A stretch of 36,020 bases of DNA from Ferrimicrobium sp. (GTDB lineage Bacteria > Actinomycetota > Acidimicrobiia > Acidimicrobiales > Acidimicrobiaceae), in contig JALCZJ010000027.1 of NCBI GenBank assembly GCA_022690815.1, positions 1 to 36,020 on the forward strand, read 5' to 3'. The position numbers were made by a program, and so were the translations under genes. Shown here one piece after another: positions 2,254-15,514 of the stretch (position 1 is the stretch's first letter; each line of letters starts with the position of its first letter). The notes below the pieces were generated by a model. The model made no database searches and was not told the DNA's origin. It saw only the letters and a program-made list of their open reading frames with translations.

Positions 2254-2871
2254 TTACTTCTTAGCCGGCTGGTAATACGGGTTGTTGCCGGCAGCGTGGT
2301 TGGTCACGTCGACAACCTCGACGATCTCAGGAACGGCATCTTGAATAGCCGTTGCGATGCCCTGGGAAAGCGTCATCGCCGCCAATCCACAACCTTGACA
2401 GCCCCCGCCCATCAGTACGTAGGCTCGGCTGTCCACGACGCCCGCGAGCTCCGCGTAACCGCCGTGTGCGGCAATGGCCGGATTGACCTGCTCCGAGAGA
2501 ATGGCGTTCACCCGCAACGCCAAGTCATTCGCGAGCGCCTCAGGACCGAAGTCGGGCAGATCGCTCGCCTCTGGCGTTGGGGTGTTTGGGTTCACAATCG
2601 CGAGTTCGCCGTCATCACCCACCTCCAGCGTCGCGCCGGTAAGCCGTTCAACAGATGCTTGGGGTACCACCACGTTAAGGTCCCCAAAACGCGACTGCAC
2701 ATCTCCTGGTGTTACCTGAGCAAGCTCTTGGAAATAGACGTCGTAGAGGAATGATGTTCCATCATTACCCGCCACCTCGATCCAAAGCGCGAGCGTATCT
2801 GGCGAACCCTCATCAGCCAACGCCTCTAAGACCACCTCAACCGCTGCATCGGTTACTCGAAAATCGCTCAT
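2254..2871 (-). CDS. nfuA: NfuA-type Fe-S cluster biogenesis protein
   Basis: A 205-residue two-domain protein. Residues 1 to about 95 resemble an A-type (HesB/IscA) scaffold that has lost its cysteines, as in NfuA. Residues about 110-200 form a NifU C-terminal domain with the cluster-binding CxxC at Cys158 and Cys161 (GGGCQGCGLA), followed by a conserved SQGIATAIQDAVPEIVEVVDV helix-strand. NfuA holds a [4Fe-4S] cluster between two monomers and delivers it to client enzymes. It is divergent from an ATP-grasp/radical SAM unit that needs [4Fe-4S] clusters, so the proximity may be functional (inference). The ATG at 2871 is preceded by a purine-rich GGAACGGGAG. Confidence 0.9.
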   Translation of the reverse strand: MSDFRVTDAAVEVVLEALADEGSPDTLALWIEVAGNDGTSFLYDVYFQELAQVTPGDVQSRFGDLNVVVPQASVERLTGATLEVGDDGELAIVNPNTPTPEASDLPDFGPEALANDLALRVNAILSEQVNPAIAAHGGYAELAGVVDSRAYVLMGGGCQGCGLAAMTLSQGIATAIQDAVPEIVEVVDVTNHAAGNNPYYQPAKK

Positions 2872-2932: not shown

Positions 2933-3035
2933 CCCCTTGGAGCACCCAAGCTAACCAATCATCGATCGCTCGATCGACCGGTTCACCTGGTGCCAGCACG
3001 CCAACGTGCATCGCTCATGGTACCATTCTAGACAC

Positions 3036-4253
3036 ATGGAACACATCGTCCTCGTCGTCCCGGCTGAGAGTTACCGGGCGGATGCCTTCCTACAGGCCGC
3101 TCAGCGAGCCTCCCAACAGCTCACGGTCGTCACCGACGCCGAATTACCCCTTGGAGACCAAAACCTCGCAATCGAGAGCATGCAACCAACACCCGAAGAA
3201 CTCGCCCGGATCGAAGAGCTCCTCTTTACCCGTGCTCCCTCGATTGTTCTCGGCGTCGACGAGGTCTCCACTCGGTTGGCAGCCCGACTCAGCGACGCAA
3301 TCGGTCTCACAACCGAGCGATCCGCCATGGTCGAACGCGCCATCGACAAGGCCACGTTACGCGAAGCACTCGCGCTAGCAGAGGTCAATCAGCCCTCGTT
3401 TGTCGTCACTACGATCGCTGCCCTCAAGTCACAAACCCGGAAGGAGTTCGAGACCCTCGTCGACTCCGTTGGTGACGATTTCATTATCAAGCCGACCCAT
3501 GGGACCGCTTCGAGAGGCGTCATCCGTGCCCATCGCAACGATCTCCACCAGGCGCTCGACCTGCTCAGTCGCGTCCAAGACCCGTCGGCACCAGTGCTGC
3601 TAGAACGCTACGTCGAAGGCGCAGAGTTCGCGATCGAAGGCATCGTCCATGGCGATCAACTCGAGATCCTCATGATCTTTGCCAAACCCGACATAGGTAC
3701 TGGACCTTACTTTTGGGAATCGACCTATATCGGGCCTGCGCATCTGACAGAACGAGAACGGCGTGAACTCACCAGCACCCTCGAACGCGGCATCCGAGCC
3801 CTCGGTCTCAAAGATACGCCGATCCACGCCGAACTCCGCCTCGCAAACGAGCGAGCCACCATCCTCGAGATCGCCCCACGCTCCATCGGGGGTCGTTGTT
3901 CAGCGGCCCTGCGCTTTGGTGATGGACAGCGTCTCGAGGACATCATCCTCGCTCGGGCCCTTGGTGACACCCGCATCGCAAGACCGCTACACAAGACCGT
4001 TGGCATCTACATGATCCCGACACCACGCGAGGGGATTCTCGCCGGGGTTGCGGGTATCGATGCTGCGCGTAGCGTCGGTGGGATTGTCGGCATCGAGATC
4101 ACCGTGGCGAATGGGACACACGTGTTCCCACCGCCGTTCACCGATCGCTATCTTGGATTCATCTTTGCCCAAGATCCTGGTCAAAGCCGCGTAAGGCAAG
4201 CGCTCGCCCGAGCAGCGGGCTTGCTCGAGATTCGGATCGACCCGGTCTACTAG
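3036..4253 (+). CDS. ATP-grasp domain protein (carboxylate-amine ligase-like)
   Basis: A 405-residue protein of the ATP-grasp superfamily, which activates a carboxylate as acyl-phosphate and joins it to an amine or thiol. It has an N-terminal Rossmann-like pre-ATP-grasp domain (MEHIVLVVPAESYRADAFL), the ATP-lid region (DDFIIKPTHGTASRGVIRAH), the adenine-site strand (APVLLERYVEGAEFAIEGIV) and the Mg-binding motif (HAELRLANERATILEIAPR with IGGRCS after it). The layout resembles BacD or carbamoyl-phosphate-synthase-like ligases; the substrate cannot be read from sequence. The start MEHIVL at 3036 is preferred over an upstream in-frame ATG at 3006. A TACCAT hexamer lies 9 nt before it. The gene ends 10 bp before a radical SAM gene, and the two probably serve one pathway. 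Confidence 0.85.
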   Translation: MEHIVLVVPAESYRADAFLQAAQRASQQLTVVTDAELPLGDQNLAIESMQPTPEELARIEELLFTRAPSIVLGVDEVSTRLAARLSDAIGLTTERSAMVERAIDKATLREALALAEVNQPSFVVTTIAALKSQTRKEFETLVDSVGDDFIIKPTHGTASRGVIRAHRNDLHQALDLLSRVQDPSAPVLLERYVEGAEFAIEGIVHGDQLEILMIFAKPDIGTGPYFWESTYIGPAHLTERERRELTSTLERGIRALGLKDTPIHAELRLANERATILEIAPRSIGGRCSAALRFGDGQRLEDIILARALGDTRIARPLHKTVGIYMIPTPREGILAGVAGIDAARSVGGIVGIEITVANGTHVFPPPFTDRYLGFIFAQDPGQSRVRQALARAAGLLEIRIDPVY

Positions 4254-4256
4254 ACT
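4251..4256 (+). promoter_or_regulatory. Possible leaderless -10 element for the radical SAM gene
   Basis: TAGACT overlaps the stop codon of the ATP-grasp gene and ends 7 nt before the ATG at 4264. This is the spacing seen at other probable leaderless starts in the window. No clear -35 is visible, so it may only be coincidental sequence inside an operon. Confidence 0.35.
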
Positions 4257-4263
4257 GCTTGGG

Positions 4264-5613
4264 ATGTCTGCACTCTTCGTCTCGACTTATGAGCTTGGCC
4301 ATCAACCCCAGTTTGGAGCCGAACTTGCGGCCGAGATGCCTGAAGGGTCACTCCAGGTTTTGGACCTCACAAAGGTACCCTTTGACGTGGCCCTTGATGC
4401 GATCAACCAGGTTGAACAGCTGGTCATCACGGCTCCCATGCTCACCGGAGCGCTCGTTGCGAAGGATCTGTTAGCCGCGCTCGAGGTGGGTCAGCCCAAG
4501 CGCACCCTGATCGTGGTGGGGCTCTATGCCAACGTCTTGAAAGAATCACTTGCCCATCCCCCCACCGCCATCTGGCTCGATCGTGCGAGCCCTGCCGAGA
4601 TCGCCGCCATCTTAGCGCCGGCCTCGACGACAGCATCGGAGGCCAAACCGCGTGTAACTGGTCGACGGCCCTATCGAGTCGATCGCTCCGTCTTAGCGCC
4701 ACTTGAGCAGTATCGAAGTGTCAGGATCGACGACCGCGACCTCGTGACCGGCTACCTGGAGACGTCGGTTGGTTGCCGACACCGTTGCCTCCACTGCCCG
4801 GTGGCCGCCATCTGGAACGGACGAATCGCCGTCAATGACGCAGAGGCAGTCGTAGCCGACGGCCTCGCCCAGATTGAGGCCGGAGCCCAGCACATCAGCT
4901 TCGGTGATCCCGACTTTCTCAATGCGCCTCGACACTCGCTGGCCGTCCTGCAAGCGTTGGCAGAAAAAGCGCCCTGGGTTACGTTTGACATCACGACCAA
5001 GATTTCAGAGATCCTCCGGCACCGCGATCTCCTTCCACGACTTGGTCAGCACCACGTCAACTTCGTCATCTCCGCCGTTGAAAGCCTCAACGACGAGGTA
5101 CTTGCCCACCTTGACAAGGGCCACCAGGCAGCCGACGTGGCCGTTGCGAGAGACCTCCTCTACCGCCATGACATTGGTATGCATCCAACCTTCGTCCCCT
5201 TTAATCCGTGGGCCGAGATGCATGACCTTGTGGATATCATCGACTTCGTCATCGAGTCGGACGTGATCGAGGTCGTAGAGCCAATCCAGTACTCGATCGA
5301 GCTCCTGACGCCAACCAACTCCCTCCTCCCGATCGGCAACGACGACTTTGGGGCCTACGACGCAGACGTGATGGGCTATCGGGTTCGCTATCGCGATGCT
5401 CGCCTACCCCAACTCCAGGATCGGCTCTATCGCATCGCGAGCGACGCTGGCGATGCGAGCTTTGGCCAAACCTTTCGCCACATCGCCGAGGCGGTCTACG
5501 AAGCCAACGAACTACATGTCCGCGAGGACTATCGGCCACGAGTCGAGGCACCCAATCCGGCGGTGATGAGCGAGCCCTGGTTCTGCTGCGCGGCGCCCGC
5601 CAAACCGCGCTAA
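4264..5613 (+). CDS. Radical SAM protein with C-terminal Cys-Cys tail
   Basis: A 449-residue radical SAM enzyme. Residues 1 to about 130 look like a degenerate Rossmann/B12-binding-type domain without a DxHxxG motif. The [4Fe-4S]/SAM motif is CxxxCxxC at Cys171, Cys175 and Cys178 (CRHRCLHC), followed by barrel strands such as GAQHISFGDPDFLNA, VTFDITTKISEI and HVNFVISAVESLND. The extreme C terminus reads EPWFCCAAPAKPR, with adjacent Cys441 and Cys442. This resembles, from memory, the family named CUAEP/CCAEP-tail radical SAM (seleno)protein, in which the second Cys can be selenocysteine. Both codons here are TGC, so this is the all-Cys form, with CCAAP instead of CCAEP. The ATP-grasp gene 10 bp upstream supports a joint pathway. 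Reaction and product are unknown. Confidence 0.88.
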   Translation: MSALFVSTYELGHQPQFGAELAAEMPEGSLQVLDLTKVPFDVALDAINQVEQLVITAPMLTGALVAKDLLAALEVGQPKRTLIVVGLYANVLKESLAHPPTAIWLDRASPAEIAAILAPASTTASEAKPRVTGRRPYRVDRSVLAPLEQYRSVRIDDRDLVTGYLETSVGCRHRCLHCPVAAIWNGRIAVNDAEAVVADGLAQIEAGAQHISFGDPDFLNAPRHSLAVLQALAEKAPWVTFDITTKISEILRHRDLLPRLGQHHVNFVISAVESLNDEVLAHLDKGHQAADVAVARDLLYRHDIGMHPTFVPFNPWAEMHDLVDIIDFVIESDVIEVVEPIQYSIELLTPTNSLLPIGNDDFGAYDADVMGYRVRYRDARLPQLQDRLYRIASDAGDASFGQTFRHIAEAVYEANELHVREDYRPRVEAPNPAVMSEPWFCCAAPAKPR

Positions 5614-5616
5614 TCC

Positions 5617-7461
5617 ATGGTGGATGCCGAAGAGCTCCTCAGGGGTCTTAGCCGGGAGCAGCGTGAGGCCGTCGTTGCGCCGGCTCCTCTACTCATCGTC
5701 GCGGCGGCTGGCTCGGGCAAGACGCGAGTCCTGACCCATCGCATCGCCTATCAGATCGCTACCCACACGGTGCAAAGCACCCGATCGGTAGCGATCAGCT
5801 TCACCCGAGCCGCGGCATGGGAGGTATCGAGGCGGCTCTATCGCCTTATCGATGAGGCACCACCCCCGTGCGGGACGTTCCACTCACATGCGCTGGGCTT
5901 GGTGCGTGACGGCCTTGGTATGCTCGGTAGGTCGATGCCTCGCCTGATCGGAGACCCCTGGGTGTTGGTGGGCGAGTCCAAACAAAAATTGGGAGAGTCC
6001 CGTCGTCGAGCCGTCGCCGCTGAGATTGACCGCCTTCGTGCCCACGGCCTTAACGCCACCGATCTCAGCGAGCATCGAGATTTCGTAGGTATCGCTGACC
6101 CAGATGAGCTCATTTCCATCATGGTGGCGATGGAGCGGGCGAAAGCGCGCGAGCACCTCATAGACCTCACCGATGTGGTGCGCATCGCGACCGAGCTGGT
6201 CGCACGCAACGACGGGGTTGGGGAGGCACTCCGTCTTCAAGCTCGATGGGTCTACATCGATGAATTCCAAGACGTCAACCCACTACAGCTGCGCTTCATC
6301 GAGCGGTGGATGGGTGGCGACCTGAGCGGGCTGACCGTGGTGGGAGATCCAAATCAATCGATCTATGGTTGGAACGGATCGGATCCGAGGCTCATGGCTC
6401 AGCTTCATGAGCGGGTTCCGACATTGACGCGCGTCGCACTCTCTGTCAACTACCGATCCACCGCCTCACTGGTTGACGCAGCCAACCCGGTCATCGACCC
6501 GGGGCTGGATCTACACGTACGAGCCCAACGCCAAGGGGGGCAATCCCCCCAACTCCTCGAGGCAGCGACCGGGCGAGCCGAGGCCGAGATGGCGGCCCAC
6601 AAGATCCAGGAACTGCACTATCGTGGGGTTAGTTACGCCTCCATGGCAGTGCTGGCACGGACGATTCGGCAGCTAAGAACGGTTGAGGAGGTGTTTGGAC
6701 GCCTCGAGATACCCCACAGCGTCCTCGGCATGACGCCGCTAGCATCAGCGCCAGCCGTGATCGACCTCATGCGCACCGCGCGCACCGAACGCCTGGCAAT
6801 CAGTGAGATCTGCGACATGATCGAGGAGGCCCTGATCGTCTCCACCCCGGAATCTCGGACCAATCAGCGGCTCCTCCTTGAGGTGGCCACCGAGTTGCGG
6901 CGGCAGGATCCAGCCGCCGACTATGGGGCACTCGATGAACTGCTCAGGGGTTTGCAGGTTAAAGGCATCGAAGCCGTCTCCATCACGACGTTCCATCGCG
7001 CCAAGGGGCTCCAGTGGCATCACGTCCACCTCATCGGCATTGGCGACCGCAGCTATCCGTCGCGACGAGGGCTAGCGCAGTCGCTACTCGATGAGGAGCG
7101 TCGCCTGCTCTATGTTGCCATGACGCGCGCGACTGACTCTCTGACGATCAGCTGGTCAAAGCCGAGCACGCGACCGTCGGAGATGCTCACACACCTCCCC
7201 TTTGGCGAGGTCATGACCACCCCAGCCTCCATCGCCACCGGCGGCGCTCCATCGCTGGCAACCAAACTCGATCGCTGGCGTGTCATCGTGGCAAAGGAGC
7301 GCAAGCTGCCGGCCTATCTGATCCTCTCCGATGCCGATCTGAGACGACTCACCCGTCAGCGCCCAAACGATCGACACGCGCTCGTCACCACGCTGACGAC
7401 GCCACTTCTGATGGAGTCGCCACAGCTCATCGACCGCCTCATGGCTGAACTCACCAAATGA
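5617..7461 (+). CDS. UvrD2-like superfamily 1 DNA helicase with HRDC region
   Basis: A 614-residue SF1A (UvrD/Rep/PcrA) 3'-5' DNA helicase. Visible motifs are the Q-motif area (LSREQREAVV), Walker A AAGSGKT (residues 30-36), motif Ia (VAISFTRAAA), Walker B/DEFQD (215-219), motif III (GDPNQSIYGWNGSD), motif IV (SVNYRS), motif V (TTFHRAKGLQW) and motif VI (RRLLYVAMTRATD). About 70 residues at the C terminus (LDRWRVIVAKERKLPAYLILSDADL onward) look like an HRDC domain, as in mycobacterial UvrD2. The protein is somewhat shorter than UvrD2 (about 700 residues) because the 2B insertion is compact. It starts 3 bp after the radical SAM stop codon, so it is co-transcribed with it. Its link with that pathway is probably only positional. 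Confidence 0.92.
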   Translation: MVDAEELLRGLSREQREAVVAPAPLLIVAAAGSGKTRVLTHRIAYQIATHTVQSTRSVAISFTRAAAWEVSRRLYRLIDEAPPPCGTFHSHALGLVRDGLGMLGRSMPRLIGDPWVLVGESKQKLGESRRRAVAAEIDRLRAHGLNATDLSEHRDFVGIADPDELISIMVAMERAKAREHLIDLTDVVRIATELVARNDGVGEALRLQARWVYIDEFQDVNPLQLRFIERWMGGDLSGLTVVGDPNQSIYGWNGSDPRLMAQLHERVPTLTRVALSVNYRSTASLVDAANPVIDPGLDLHVRAQRQGGQSPQLLEAATGRAEAEMAAHKIQELHYRGVSYASMAVLARTIRQLRTVEEVFGRLEIPHSVLGMTPLASAPAVIDLMRTARTERLAISEICDMIEEALIVSTPESRTNQRLLLEVATELRRQDPAADYGALDELLRGLQVKGIEAVSITTFHRAKGLQWHHVHLIGIGDRSYPSRRGLAQSLLDEERRLLYVAMTRATDSLTISWSKPSTRPSEMLTHLPFGEVMTTPASIATGGAPSLATKLDRWRVIVAKERKLPAYLILSDADLRRLTRQRPNDRHALVTTLTTPLLMESPQLIDRLMAELTK

Positions 7462-7824
7462 ATGGTTTACCAAGACTTCCTAACGGTTGGCCCCATGACA
7501 CTGCCTCACTGTTGCTAGCGAAGCCTTTGTTCCAGAAGCTGCCTATCCAAATGATCGACACGGTGGCTGTCATTCGCGCAGCCCCTCGGACCCTTTCCGA
7601 CACCGCCTATCGCTCAAGTCGAACAAGGTTGTAATCGACGCTGTAAACGATCGGTGCCACGACATCAATGACCGCTCAACCATCACCACAGACGCCTTCA
7701 CCAACCGATGATCTGCCATCACATGGACCACCCTGCCAGCACAGCACGACGGTGCTGGCACCACTCACGCGCCCTCGTTGGCGTTGGCACCGAGCGCGAT
7801 CGGTCGTCCACCACCTCAATGGAC
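7462..7824. other. Convergent intergenic region, no gene seen
   Basis: This 363-bp space lies between the 3' ends of the helicase gene (plus) and the exonuclease III gene (minus). The open frames in it have no protein-like composition, and no hairpin followed by a T-run was found on either strand. Confidence 0.5.
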
Positions 7825-8589
7825 TCAGTCGATGCGAAACTCCACGATCACGGGCGCGTGATCAGATGGCTTCGGCGCGGCTCGGGTCTCACGATCAACG
7901 CGATAAGAACCGAGCTGCTCTCGCAACGACGCTGAGGCTAGCACGAGATCGATTCGCATCCCCATCCCTCGGCGAAAGGCACCCTGGCGGTAGTCCCACC
8001 AGGTAAATCGAGGCTCTTGGGTGGTGAGCGCCGTGCCGCAGTCAAACAAGCCAAGGTCGAGAAGGCGACCGAGCGCCGCACGCTCTGGTTCACTCACATG
8101 GGTGGCACCGGCTAGCGCCGACGGATCCCAGACATCCTCGTCGACCGGGGCGATATTGAAGTCCCCAGCCACCACCACTGGGCCTGCGTTCATTGCCTCC
8201 ATCAACCACGTCCTCAGTTGGTCGAGCCACTCAAGCTTGTAGAAATAGTGCGGATCATCGAGCGCACGACCATTTGGGATGTAGGCCGAGCAGACACGGA
8301 TGCCATGCACCTCGCCGGTAATGAACCGAGCCTCTTCGGCATCACCACCAAAACCCAGCGATTGCTCGATCAATGGCTCACGAGTGACGAGCGCGACCCC
8401 ATTCCAACTCGAAACCCCCCAATGAGCAACCTGATAACCAAGATCGCTAAAGAGCGCCTCGGGAAAGTCCTCATCTCGAACCTTCGTCTCCTGAAGACAC
8501 AGGACATCAGGCTGGTGGGTCTCGAGCCAGGCGCTCACCAGCTCGGCGCGTGCGCGTAACGAATTGACATTCCAGGTCGCTAGCAGCAC
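7825..8589 (-). CDS. xth: Exodeoxyribonuclease III (AP endonuclease)
   Basis: A 254-residue protein of the exonuclease III/EEP family, a Mg-dependent enzyme that cleaves DNA at abasic sites and trims 3' ends in base excision repair. Family motifs appear in order: LLATWNVNSLRAR, DVLCLQETKV (metal-binding Glu), VCSAYIPNGR, VVVAGDFNIAP (catalytic Asp/Asn), GMRIDLVLAS and the terminal SDHAPV (catalytic Asp-His). The GTG at 8589 is preferred because GGAG lies 6 nt upstream and the family begins at this residue. An in-frame ATG at 8634 would add 15 unrelated residues overlapping fabZ. The fabZ stop codon is 1 bp upstream of this GTG, so the two genes are probably translationally coupled. Confidence 0.93.
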   Translation of the reverse strand: MLLATWNVNSLRARAELVSAWLETHQPDVLCLQETKVRDEDFPEALFSDLGYQVAHWGVSSWNGVALVTREPLIEQSLGFGGDAEEARFITGEVHGIRVCSAYIPNGRALDDPHYFYKLEWLDQLRTWLMEAMNAGPVVVAGDFNIAPVDEDVWDPSALAGATHVSEPERAALGRLLDLGLFDCGTALTTQEPRFTWWDYRQGAFRRGMGMRIDLVLASASLREQLGSYRVDRETRAAPKPSDHAPVIVEFRID

Positions 8590-11605: not shown

Positions 11606-14600
11606 GTGGCTGATACTTTTGAAACCGATTTTGGACCTAACGACTGGCTTGTCGAAGAGATGCTCGACCATTACCGAGACAATCCGAGCTCGGTACCACA
11701 GAGCTGGCAACAGTACTTCAAGAGTCACAACATCGAACCTCGCTTCGCCAACAGTACGGTAACCGATGCCGTCGCCACCGAGGGGCGGCTCCCGGCACAT
11801 GATCTGGCGAGTTCTAACCCGGCGGCCACCGATACTATTGCCACCAGCAACGGGGTCTTGACGAACGGCACTGGGTTATCAACCAACGGCCAAGAGCCAC
11901 AGGGTTCGACGCCGCTCACCCCCAACGGCAACAGCGATCGAGTGGCTACCAATGGTGCCTCGATGTCCACGACCCCTCCGGCGACTATGGAGCCAGCTCC
12001 CGCCACCGAGAACGCCTCCGCACCCAACAAGCCTGATGCCCCCACCAGCACGCAGCCGCACTCGGCTCCGGTTAGTCCTGCAGCCAAATCAACTGACGCT
12101 ATCGACGATGCAACTATTAGTCCACTTCGCGGTGCATCCTTGGCGCTTGCCAAAAATATGGACCAATCATTGACGGTACCGACCGCGACAAGCGTGCGTG
12201 CGATACCAGCCAAAGCCCTGGAGATCAACAGGTCCATCATCAACAACCAACTGAGTCGCGAAGGTCGAGCCAAAGTCAGCTTCGGTCACCTCATCACCTG
12301 GGCCATCATCAAGTCCCTCGCCAAGCATCCAAGGATGAACGCCAGTTTTGTACCAGCCAGCGATGGTGCAGCTCCTGCGATCAAAAGTTATGAACACGTC
12401 AATCTCGGCGTCGCCGTCGACATCGTCCGCCGTGACGGACAGCGCACGCTCATGGTGCCAGTACTCAAAGACATCGACACCAAAACTTTTGCTCAGTTCG
12501 TCACCGCTTACGATCAGCTGATCGCAAAGGTTCGCGAGAACCGTGCCACCGTCGATGACTTCATCGGCGCCTCTGTCAGCGTCACCAACCCCGGGACGAT
12601 TGGGACCGAGCATTCCATTCCGCGGCTCATGAATGGCCAAGGGGCCATCATCGGTGTCGGCGCCATCGGGTATCCCGTGGAATTCGGCGCTGCCGATCCA
12701 AGAACACTCGGGGAGCTCGGCATCTCTAAGACGGTTACCCTGACCTCAACTTATGACCACCGCATCATCCAGGGGGCCGAATCCGGTCAGTTCCTTGCTG
12801 ATGCGGCGGCCCTCATCGAAGGTCAAGACCACTTTTACCAGGAGATCTTCGCCTCACTCGACGTCGCCTACGTGCCGGCGATCTACACACCTGACCACAG
12901 CTCGCTTGGCGCCGATTCGCTTGAGCGCCAAGAGAAGCAGATCCACGTCCAGACGCTGATCAACAACTACCGCGTCCGGGGCCACCTGTTGGCACGCCTC
13001 GACCCACTGAATCTGATGAAGCCGACGATGAGCCCTGAGCTCGATCCGGAGACCTATGGGCTCACTCTCTGGGATCTGAGCCGGGTCTTCCTTACCGATG
13101 GGCTCGCTGGGACTACACAACTCACCCTGGCCGATATCCTCCAGCTACTGCGTGACAGCTACTGCGGCTCTATTGGCTATGAGTACATGCATATCCAAAA
13201 TCCAGAAGAGAAGCACTGGATCCAGAACCGGGTGGAGGGAGTCCGCCCCACCATCACCAAAGAGGATCAACTCCGAATCCTGACCACATTGAACGATGCT
13301 GAAGCCTTTGAGAAGTTCCTGTCGACCCGCTACATCGGACAAAAGCGCTTTGGCCTCGAAGGTGCAGAAAGCGCCGTCGTCTTCCTCACCGAAGTGCTCA
13401 ACCAAGCGGTACGCGGTTCGGTCACCTCGGCCGTGCTCGGCATGGCTCACCGCGGTCGACTCAACGTGCTCGCCAACATCGTTGGCAAGTCCTACCGAAT
13501 GATTTTTGAGGAGTTCGAGGGCAACCTCGATCCGTCCTCCGTGCAAGGCTCTGGCGATGTGAAGTATCACAAGGGCTTTGAAGGAACGTACTATACGCCG
13601 GATCGTACCGAGGTGCCCATCACCCTGGCTGCCAACCCATCGCACCTTGAAGCGGTCGATGGGGTCGTCGAAGGCATGGTGCGAGCAACGCAGGACCTGC
13701 GTGGCAACCTCTTCGAGTTTGCCGTGCTCGGGATCTTGGTCCACGGCGATGCCTCCTTTGCTGGCCAGGGAGTCGTAGCCGAGACCCTCAACCTCTCCCA
13801 ATTGCCTGGATACCGCATCGGAGGTACCGTCCACCTGGTCATCAACAACCAGGTGGGCTTTACCACTAACCCCAACGAGGCGCGCTCCTCGGTCTACGCC
13901 AGCGACATCGCCAAGATGATTCAGGCGCCAATCATCCATGTCAACAGTGACGACCCGGAGGCCGTGATGCGAGCTGCCCAGATCGCTGTGGACTATCGCG
14001 AAGCGTTCCATAAGGATATCGTCGTCGACATGATCTGCTACCGGCGCCATGGGCACAATGAAGGTGACGAACCAAGCTACACCCAACCGGTGATGTACCG
14101 GGTGATCGACTCCCAACCTTCAGTGCGAAAGCTCTACCTTGAACGCCTGGTGCGGTCGAAAGCCATTACCGAAGAGGAGGGCGAGCAGGCCCTCGATGCC
14201 TATCTCGCACGCTTACAGCAGGCGCTCGTCGAGACCCGGGAGGCAGCGCCACCCAAGCCGACTGATCTGCCAGCACCTCCGCCACAGAACGTGGCGGTAC
14301 AGAACGTGTCAACCGCGGTTACCAAGGAGCAGCTGGACTACGTCGTCGATGTCCTCAACCGAACGCCCGATGGTTTCACGCTGCATCCAAAGCTTGCCAA
14401 ACAGTTCCAGACAAGGTCAGAGCTGTACGCCGATGGTGAGGTCGATTGGGCTCTCGGAGAGGCCTTTGCCTTCGCTACCGTCATGCTCGATGGACATGAC
14501 GTCCGCCTCTCTGGTCAAGACAGTCGTCGCGGCACCTTCTCACACCGCCATGCCGCACTCTATGACTATCAGAATGGCTCAACCTATCAGCCACTGGCTG

Positions 14601-15514
14601 CGATCCGCGATGATAGCCAGGCTCCGGCATCGGCGACGCCGGGCCGGTTCATGATTTATGACTCCTCGCTCTCTGAATACGCAGCGATGGCCTTTGAATA
14701 CGGGTACTCACTCATCCACAAGCAGGCACTGACGATCTGGGAAGCTCAGTTCGGAGACTTCGCCAATGGCGCCCAGATTGTCATAGACCAGTTCATCGCC
14801 GCCGCCCACGACAAGTGGAAGCAAGAATCTGGACTGACGCTGATGCTGCCACACGGTTACGAAGGTCAGGGGCCAGAACACTCGTCAGCCAGGCTGGAGC
14901 GCTTCTTGTCGCTGGCAGCCGGGCCGAACATGACCATCGCCAATCCGACCAGCGCAGCCCAGCTGTTTCACCTGTTGCGTGCCCAGATTCAACGCCCATC
15001 TCGCCGACCACTCATCATCCTCACACCCAAGTCCCTGCTGCGAGCCAAGCAATCAAGGAGCCCGGTCGCAGACTTTCTCGAGGGAGGATTCCGAGCGATT
15101 CTCGACGACCCAACATTGGCAACCGGCTCCCCAATTCGTTTGGATGTTCGTCGTATCGTGTTGTGTTCGGGCAAGATTGGCTACGAGGCGCTTGCCCAGC
15201 GCGATCGTGGAACTTCGGTGCCGACCGCCATCGTGCGCGTCGAACAGCTCTATCCATGGCCAGAGCGGGAGCTCGTCGAGCTCCTCGAGAGCTACCCTTC
15301 AGCCACCGAGCTTGTGTGGCTCCAAGAAGAACCTGAGAACATGGGGGCATGGCCGTTTGCTCACGCTCGACTCCATCGTGCGGGCGAGCATCGCCTGCGG
15401 TTGGTGCACGTATCGCGCGTTGCGACTGGGTCTCCCGCGACCGGCTCGGCCGCCATGCATGCACTCGAGCAGAGCGACATCCTTGAGCGTGCGGTCTCAA
15501 AGCCACTGAGCTAG
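11606..15514 (+). CDS. kgd: Multifunctional 2-oxoglutarate decarboxylase/dehydrogenase (Kgd/OdhA type)
   Basis: A 1302-residue fusion protein that feeds 2-oxoglutarate into the TCA cycle. Residues 1-45 are the E1 N-terminal segment (FGPNDWLVEEMLDHYRDNP). Residues about 46-185 are a Thr/Asn/Pro/Ala-rich linker. Residues about 190-420 are a succinyltransferase (E2) catalytic domain with YDHRIIQGAESGQF (His385). From about 440 the thiamin-diphosphate E1 domain follows, with GMAHRGRLNVLANI (His615), HGDASFAGQG, NNQVGFTTNP and CYRRHGHNEGDEP. As in mycobacterial Kgd and corynebacterial OdhA, there is no lipoyl domain, so a separate E2 and E3 would be partners. The protein is longer than the mycobacterial form (about 1230), mostly in the linker. 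The start is GTG at 11606. In relatives the enzyme is inhibited by the FHA protein GarA/OdhI; no such gene is in the window. Confidence 0.97.
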   Translation: MADTFETDFGPNDWLVEEMLDHYRDNPSSVPQSWQQYFKSHNIEPRFANSTVTDAVATEGRLPAHDLASSNPAATDTIATSNGVLTNGTGLSTNGQEPQGSTPLTPNGNSDRVATNGASMSTTPPATMEPAPATENASAPNKPDAPTSTQPHSAPVSPAAKSTDAIDDATISPLRGASLALAKNMDQSLTVPTATSVRAIPAKALEINRSIINNQLSREGRAKVSFGHLITWAIIKSLAKHPRMNASFVPASDGAAPAIKSYEHVNLGVAVDIVRRDGQRTLMVPVLKDIDTKTFAQFVTAYDQLIAKVRENRATVDDFIGASVSVTNPGTIGTEHSIPRLMNGQGAIIGVGAIGYPVEFGAADPRTLGELGISKTVTLTSTYDHRIIQGAESGQFLADAAALIEGQDHFYQEIFASLDVAYVPAIYTPDHSSLGADSLERQEKQIHVQTLINNYRVRGHLLARLDPLNLMKPTMSPELDPETYGLTLWDLSRVFLTDGLAGTTQLTLADILQLLRDSYCGSIGYEYMHIQNPEEKHWIQNRVEGVRPTITKEDQLRILTTLNDAEAFEKFLSTRYIGQKRFGLEGAESAVVFLTEVLNQAVRGSVTSAVLGMAHRGRLNVLANIVGKSYRMIFEEFEGNLDPSSVQGSGDVKYHKGFEGTYYTPDRTEVPITLAANPSHLEAVDGVVEGMVRATQDLRGNLFEFAVLGILVHGDASFAGQGVVAETLNLSQLPGYRIGGTVHLVINNQVGFTTNPNEARSSVYASDIAKMIQAPIIHVNSDDPEAVMRAAQIAVDYREAFHKDIVVDMICYRRHGHNEGDEPSYTQPVMYRVIDSQPSVRKLYLERLVRSKAITEEEGEQALDAYLARLQQALVETREAAPPKPTDLPAPPPQNVAVQNVSTAVTKEQLDYVVDVLNRTPDGFTLHPKLAKQFQTRSELYADGEVDWALGEAFAFATVMLDGHDVRLSGQDSRRGTFSHRHAALYDYQNGSTYQPLAAIRDDSQAPASATPGRFMIYDSSLSEYAAMAFEYGYSLIHKQALTIWEAQFGDFANGAQIVIDQFIAAAHDKWKQESGLTLMLPHGYEGQGPEHSSARLERFLSLAAGPNMTIANPTSAAQLFHLLRAQIQRPSRRPLIILTPKSLLRAKQSRSPVADFLEGGFRAILDDPTLATGSPIRLDVRRIVLCSGKIGYEALAQRDRGTSVPTAIVRVEQLYPWPERELVELLESYPSATELVWLQEEPENMGAWPFAHARLHRAGEHRLRLVHVSRVATGSPATGSAAMHALEQSDILERAVSKPLS

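Follow-up and report, generated by a model that had tools for sequence, protein, structure and literature searches.

A radical SAM enzyme with a Cys-Cys or Cys-Sec tail, its ATP-grasp partner and an Nfu-like carrier: a proposed pathway in Ferrimicrobium and other bacteria

What does a radical S-adenosylmethionine (SAM) enzyme that ends in two adjacent cysteines do beside an ATP-grasp ligase? The question is raised by a contig of Ferrimicrobium sp., 36,020 bases long and here called the window, in which the genes for these two proteins lie in the same direction with a gap of 10 nt and a gene for an NfuA-like Fe-S carrier diverges from them. The original prediction described this close pair, its CxxxCxxC site and its WFCCAAPAKPR ending, and all of these were confirmed from the sequence. 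The radical SAM enzyme and the ATP-grasp ligase go together across phyla even where they are unlinked, a partnership that is well supported, and the Nfu-like gene is their likely third partner. Since they recur together across many bacterial phyla, the three genes probably form one undescribed pathway. The features of the window are as follows.

2254-2871, minus strand: NfuA-like Fe-S carrier gene, 205 aa, divergent from the ATP-grasp gene, likely third member of the set
3036-4253, plus strand: ATP-grasp ligase gene, 405 aa, L-amino-acid-ligase-like (ATP-grasp_4 plus LAL_C2)
3477-3905, plus strand: ATP-grasp_4 domain (Pfam), residues 148-290 of the ATP-grasp protein
4011-4238, plus strand: L-amino acid ligase C-terminal domain 2 (Pfam), residues 326-401 of the ATP-grasp protein
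4264-5613, plus strand: ArsL/CUAEP-type radical SAM gene, 449 aa, with a Rossmann (B12-binding-like) N-domain, a radical SAM core and a Cys-Cys tail
4774-4797, plus strand: CxxxCxxC, read as CRHRCLHC in the sequence (Cys171, Cys175, Cys178), predicted [4Fe-4S] cluster site of the radical SAM enzyme
5578-5610, plus strand: C-terminal tail WFCCAAPAKPR (W439 to R449) of the radical SAM enzyme, with C441 at 5584-5586 and C442, the Cys/Sec position in relatives, at 5587-5589

The frame of the ATP-grasp gene also has a GTG opening at 3006; relatives begin at the Met of 3036.

Conservation of the tail and of the ligase partner

Two sets of relatives were compared, with genomes labelled G and loci L. 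The kin set consists of 41 genomes, with a match to the radical SAM protein at E of at most 0.001 in 30 and 26 strong rows of at least 283 bits (L002-L027, the window's own genome included). The named relatives are the best 80 of at least 554 confirmed radical SAM relatives from a scan of genome contigs; they were picked by core motifs and by similarity to one query, the tail not being used, and nearly all their records are metagenome-assembled genomes (MAGs). The two sets overlap slightly, L062 for example being a contig of G032, and the calling of open reading frames (ORFs) was crude, antisense frames being sometimes chosen, as over the L062 Nfu gene. The titles of the named records place them in Actinomycetota, Chloroflexota, Nitrospirota, Poribacteria, KSB1, Acidobacteriota/Blastocatellia, Gemmatimonadetes and Rokubacteria, with Nitrospira MAGs among the carriers of the set. 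The pair is also present in a MAG titled Bifidobacterium breve (L100), probably a mislabelled bin.

The tail was found in every complete radical SAM sequence examined, and its second Cys is interchangeable with selenocysteine (Sec). All 80 named relatives end in WFC(C/U)(A/S)EP, as CCAEP in 40, CUAEP in 27 and CCSEP in 13. In those 27 an in-frame TGA replaces the second Cys and the register after it is held without exception, AEP being retained; in Thermomicrobium roseum the codons run WFC-TGA-GCG-GAG-CCG. Of the 26 strong kin-set matches, G025 is truncated at a contig end; the other 25 are complete and all carry the tail, which is WFCC except in G008, where it is WFC-TGA-SEP. Cys441 and Cys442 are invariant in an alignment of 54 radical SAM rows, termed A3, which is Cys-tailed only by design.

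The elongation factor SelB was sought in 20 records. It scored above cut-off in all five whole genomes with a TGA tail (G008, G041, G042, G043 and G046) and in two of 13 with a Cys tail (G028 and G045); it was not above cut-off in G025, whose tail is not visible, and the plasmid record of T. roseum, only one part of that TGA-tail genome, gave no match. The best SelB match in the window's genome reached 204 bits, under the cut-off of 242, and the window has Cys442 and no TGA. At least 11 changes between Cys and Sec fall on a quick 85-row radical SAM tree built without the tail, in which 27 of 82 inner branches are open and the window's row sits on a long branch (1.89).

The ligase is conserved along with the tail. 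It lies directly upstream of the radical SAM gene in 24 of the 26 strong-match kin genomes, counting a fused form in G018 and a small opposite ORF of doubtful worth called between the two genes in G013; in G032 the two are 3.4 kb apart, and in G019 the contig ends at that place. The G018 form is a single open frame of 855 aa that joins ATP-grasp and radical SAM (L034:3142-5709, minus strand). An ATP-grasp of the same clade was found in 51 of the 80 named loci, at most 200 nt away in 40 (the L083 copy is a contig-edge fragment), and within 5 kb in 26 of the 41 named loci flanked by 5 kb of sequence in either direction. Whole-genome searches covered 28 of the 29 remaining loci: 24 genomes hold the ATP-grasp at 346 bits or more, and one further genome holds a piece of it at the end of a contig. 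L124, the last of the 29, shares its assembly prefix with L123, where the ligase is present. The total over named loci and genomes is thus 76 of 80, or 77 with the contig-end piece.

Co-occurrence was then counted in evenly drawn samples of two phyla. Among 296 Actinomycetota genomes the radical SAM gene was found in 22, the ATP-grasp in 27 and both in 21, where 2.0 were expected; among 201 Chloroflexota genomes the counts were 51, 68 and 50, where 17.3 were expected. In 15 of these 50 Chloroflexota genomes the two genes are separated by over 5 kb or lie on different contigs. The ATP-grasp occurs without the radical SAM gene in 6/27 Actinomycetota and 18/68 Chloroflexota genomes, and the radical SAM gene without the ATP-grasp in 1/22 and 1/51. 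Because the ligase occurs alone and the reverse is almost never seen, the radical SAM enzyme would appear to depend on the ligase, perhaps on its product. The ATP-grasp clade is cleanly set apart in the Actinomycetota sample, at 340 bits or more against at most 178 for other ATP-grasps (8 of 35 genomes excluded by score). It is less clean in Chloroflexota, where full matches reach at least 415 bits, genomes with a best match of at most 163 bits were excluded (3 of 71), and split pieces in G390 (322 and 181 bits) and G502 (231 and 175 bits) were counted in. Both the tail and the ATP-grasp partner, on which the original prediction had staked its case, are therefore kept far beyond close relatives.

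Relation of the two enzymes to known families

The original prediction had likened the tail to that of a CUAEP/CCAEP family of radical SAM proteins. This was right in kind, since the enzyme is homologous over its full length to the NCBIfam family NF040546, with the CxxxCxxC site and the WFCC tail in common; it overshot in degree, as the score is 341.2 bits against a curated cut-off of 500, and the ending is CCAAP instead of C(C/U)AEP, with WFCC and the Pro retained. The enzyme is, judged by sequence, a divergent relative of NF040546 and not a curated member. Only one of the 41 kin-set genomes passes the NF040546 cut-off, and the tail Glu has been lost in kin-set genera g1, g5 and g7. The family name states neither a function nor a partner. 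Searches of the open PubMed Central (PMC) literature found no paper carrying the CUAEP or CCAEP tail name and none on selenoprotein, radical SAM and ATP-grasp together, and a search on the 3-amino-3-carboxypropyl (ACP) group, radical SAM and selenocysteine returned nothing evidently about this gene set.

The radical SAM domain PF04055 scores 33.2 bits against a cut-off of 29.5, and CxxxCxxC is invariant in A3 and common to four ArsL-type sequences. In an AlphaFold2 (AF2) model with a mean confidence (pLDDT) of 90.4, the radical SAM core is predicted to follow a Rossmann domain of cobalamin-binding type at the N terminus. The nearest folds are OxsB (Z 26.1) and AprD4 (Z 25.0), and CysS, MgmA, TsrM and MiaB are also similar (Z 26 to 22 overall). 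The pLDDT drops to about 56 in the last block, where the tail sits. No conserved cysteines for an auxiliary cluster were seen beyond the two tail Cys when A3 and four ArsL-type proteins were aligned.

The nearest characterised relative, as far as sequence similarity tells, is ArsL, which the original prediction did not name. The enzyme scores 182.1 bits against the ArsL family NF040542, below its cut-off of 450, and the next NCBIfam family follows at 28.8 bits. A3 was aligned with the four ArsL-type proteins, whose sequences come from annotated plasmids. Of 112 columns conserved at the 90% level within the family, 56 are matched by every one of the four, among them the CxxxCxxC site and the paired Cys of the tail. 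The likeness covers columns of the N-domain and core as well as the tandem Cys at the very end, whereas ArsL stands in an ars operon and has an RCCLKC tail, of whose three Cys the window's enzyme shares two; CCLKC aligns with CCAEP, and the third ArsL Cys corresponds to Pro445. A study of ArsL reports that arsL alone is enough in E. coli to make AST-OH from arsenite, and predicts that the enzyme transfers the ACP group of SAM to arsenic (PMC8552651).

The genes around the set were searched for arsenic functions with 15 proteins from four ars clusters (ArsM, ArsC, transporter, ArsH, ArsQ, ArsN, GTP-binding protein, ArsR, aquaporin and CMD) against 132 flanking loci and the window. The matches were confined to ArsM in L138, ArsC in L057 and L148, ArsR in L084 and aquaporin in L148. 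In L138 the ArsM-like gene and a small helix-turn-helix regulator, named from reading (7318-8501), lie about 2 kb from a Sec-tailed radical SAM gene.

The ATP-grasp protein is classed from its domains and predicted fold as L-amino-acid-ligase-like, in a separate clade of its own. It matches PF13535 at 80.0 bits (cut-off 27) and PF18603 at 51.6 bits (cut-off 29.4), and its best PDB match by phmmer is 3vot, the L-amino acid ligase BL00235 (E 6.7e-19). Its AF2 model (pLDDT 93.0) aligns to 3vot by VIA-align with Z 37.3 and a root-mean-square deviation of 3.2 over 373 residues, the next structure reaching Z 31.9. The L-amino acid ligases BL00235, BacD and RizA form dipeptides and are not known to have a radical partner; the whole fold of 3vot and the LAL_C2 domain are shared with them, but the identity is about 20%.

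The Nfu-like carrier and other neighbours

The original prediction suggested that the adjoining NfuA could supply Fe-S clusters. The neighbourhoods support its place in the set, if not in every genome, and the Nfu-like gene is a likely third partner of the radical SAM enzyme and the ligase. The window's protein scores 85.2 bits against NfuA (TIGR03341), below the cut-off of 269.35, and 67.5 bits for the NifU domain PF01106 (cut-off 27). Two NifU-domain genes, this one included, were detected in the window's genome; since only one further such gene is held there, the NfuA-like gene may be dedicated to the set. In 46 of the 80 named loci an Nfu-like gene lies at most 2 kb from the radical SAM or ATP-grasp gene, a count that includes L113, where length and sequence indicate an A-type carrier instead of Nfu. 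Nfu also adjoins the ATP-grasp in 18 of 30 loci away from any radical SAM gene, among them all six Actinomycetota genomes in which no radical SAM gene was found. It is co-directional with the ATP-grasp in two Nitrospirota loci and mostly divergent in Actinomycetota and Chloroflexota.

Two other neighbours were considered and set aside. DUF169 (PF02596), a candidate fourth member, was kept peripheral, as the window's genome lacks it and just 18 of the 41 kin genomes carry it; clustering placed it in 21 of the 80 named loci, three of which were checked with Pfam. It is seen as COG2043 in L136 (11480-12220) and 20 other loci, and in Nitrospira it stands between the radical SAM and ATP-grasp genes. 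The accessible parts of PMC5322559 and PMC8762117 name DUF169 but yield no function, and no paper on DUF169 with radical SAM was found in the open PMC literature. A UvrD helicase gene 3 nt downstream was not counted; it is a block member in 22 of the 26 kin loci, all of the window's own family.

Several further observations concern the surroundings, with genes named from their translations. In nine Chloroflexota loci (L079, L081, L082, L087, L089, L090, L091, L099 and L101) the set is followed by LipA-like and AceE-like genes, accompanied by a LipB-like gene in six and by E2- and E3-like genes in eight; AceE-like genes also flank the radical SAM gene in L112, L119, L135 and L140. In the window itself, a 1302-aa ORF at 11606-15514 has the appearance of a 2-oxoglutarate dehydrogenase E1/E2 fusion, and 19 of the 26 kin loci, its own included, have a relative of this ORF in the vicinity of the set. 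In the KSB1 locus L123 (6914-15865), ATP-grasp, MoaA-like, Nfu, Sec-tailed radical SAM, Rieske-, MIP18-, SufS- and SufU-like genes are consecutive. In five Actinomycetota loci the gene after the radical SAM gene encodes a conserved protein of 234-313 aa that is rich in Cys (L064:6672-7493, L071, L074, L109, where one ORF intervenes, and L125:11623-12327); the L125 member, the sole one searched, had no Pfam match.

A proposed pathway and its rivals

Based on the ArsL homology with its ACP proposal, and on a ligase model closest to 3vot, a mechanism was proposed in which the radical SAM enzyme would perform ArsL-type ACP chemistry, using a mobile arm that bears either a dithiol or a thiol-selenol pair. 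The C-terminal Cys-Cys or Cys-Sec arm would fold back to the cluster and either hold the acceptor atom or give the electrons that release the product. The ATP-grasp protein would activate a carboxylate as an acyl phosphate and form an amide, so that either a dipeptide with a modification or a short peptide resembling a cofactor would arise; its product may itself be the substrate of the radical SAM enzyme, and the ligase acting first is very slightly favoured. Nfu would supply the oxygen-sensitive cluster or repair it between turnovers. The substrate, the order of steps and the product are what we infer. That the three genes make up one conserved small-molecule pathway working by this mechanism is held tentatively, at a little short of even likelihood. 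The pyrrolysine enzymes PylB and PylC presumably work alike, in that radical SAM chemistry on an amino acid is coupled with amide formation by an ATP-grasp ligase; theirs is another radical SAM subfamily, not known to have a Cys/Sec tail or an Nfu, and no membership is claimed. In the original prediction as a whole, the conservation of tail and partner held up, and its chemistry stays a proposal.

Several points weigh against the proposed pathway. The radical SAM enzyme is not filed as a curated NF040546 member because both the score cut-off and the exact tail were missed, and the ACP proposal is borrowed from ArsL-type proteins of 23-29% identity, whose third tail Cys is Pro here in an alignment too short to be strong evidence. 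The fold is common to B12-dependent and methylthio enzymes, so other radical chemistry also fits. Three named genomes (L063, L072 and L110) gave no ATP-grasp by whole-genome search, the Fisher tests on co-occurrence ignore kinship, and the G018 fusion could be an assembly error with a lost stop, its MAG being fragmented and 71% complete. In 34 of the 80 named loci, many on short contigs, there is no Nfu-like gene as close as 2 kb, and none adjoins 12 of the 30 lone ATP-grasp loci, of which four (L190, L194, L199 and L206) have Nfu at the radical SAM locus instead (L120, L096, L117 and L085). Clustering of named-locus neighbours revealed no constant biosynthetic neighbour besides Nfu.

The fold leads to one rival, in which the enzyme would perform ordinary 5'-deoxyadenosyl radical chemistry of the C-C, C-S or epimerisation type, the ligase would supply a peptide substrate and the tail would be purely a redox relay that re-reduces enzyme or product, comparable to the Cys-Sec arm with which mammalian thioredoxin reductase ends. 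None of its closest structural relatives, OxsB, AprD4, CysS, MgmA, TsrM and MiaB, is to our knowledge an ACP enzyme. Cys/Sec interchange, here at one tail position, is typical of redox or nucleophilic residues, and the tail is C-terminal with a low pLDDT in its last block. ArsL, however, is far closer by sequence (182 bits) than other NCBIfam families (at most 29 bits) and has the tandem Cys in common, and this rival seems unlikely, though not markedly so. Insertion of sulfur or selenium, in which the enzyme would give up a cluster or a (per)sulfide bound to its tail and Nfu would rebuild it, has a model in NfuA, which rebuilds the cluster of lipoyl synthase. It would account for the recurrence of Nfu beside either enzyme and agrees with the LipA-like and pyruvate dehydrogenase (PDH) E1-like genes after the set in the nine Chloroflexota loci, the SUF-like surroundings of L123 and the fold likeness to MiaB/RimO (Z 22). 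It is made distinctly unlikely by the lack of conserved auxiliary-cluster cysteines besides the tail pair, and by the presence of Nfu with the ATP-grasp also where no radical SAM gene is found.

An arsenic pathway, in which an arsinothricin-like amino acid would be made by the radical SAM enzyme and capped by the ligase, draws on the ArsL homology, the aligned tail and an ATP-grasp in three of four ArsL-type clusters (Alicyclobacillus, Priestia and Pantoea, not Pseudomonas amygdali). These ligases (AACI_RS16110 and kin) are likewise ATP-grasp_4 proteins adjoining an ArsL-type radical SAM enzyme, but belong to another lineage with 21-27% identity to the window's, which also tells against carrying the ArsL comparison over to the proposed pathway. 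Moreover, within the window's family the set belongs to a chromosomal gene block that has long been retained, and ars genes are rare near the loci, which weighs against the proposed pathway as well. With ArsM at one and ArsC at two of the 132 flanking loci, the idea of an arsenic operon was not adopted, and the arsenic pathway is very improbable. That the genes are neighbours through shared ancestry alone, without joint function, was already disfavoured and can hardly be credited: the window's family does retain a block with unrelated genes such as UvrD, but the genes co-occur unlinked, in several phyla and in differing gene orders.

For the proposed pathway, a wider conjecture, more doubtful than credible, is that several phyla share a widespread undescribed metabolite or cofactor. 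It would be made by a radical SAM enzyme akin to ArsL, with the acceptor or the electrons carried on a C-terminal Cys-Cys or Cys-Sec arm, together with an amide ligase and an Nfu of its own. If true, environmental bacteria would have a pathway built on a radical SAM selenoenzyme. Two likely partners and a specific link to ArsL chemistry can now be added to a radical SAM family that NCBI names just for its tail motif, and the Cys/Sec switch on its C-terminal tail offers a way into the possible use of thiols or selenols by radical enzymes. The product, if found, would probably be a common metabolite that has been overlooked in environmental bacteria.

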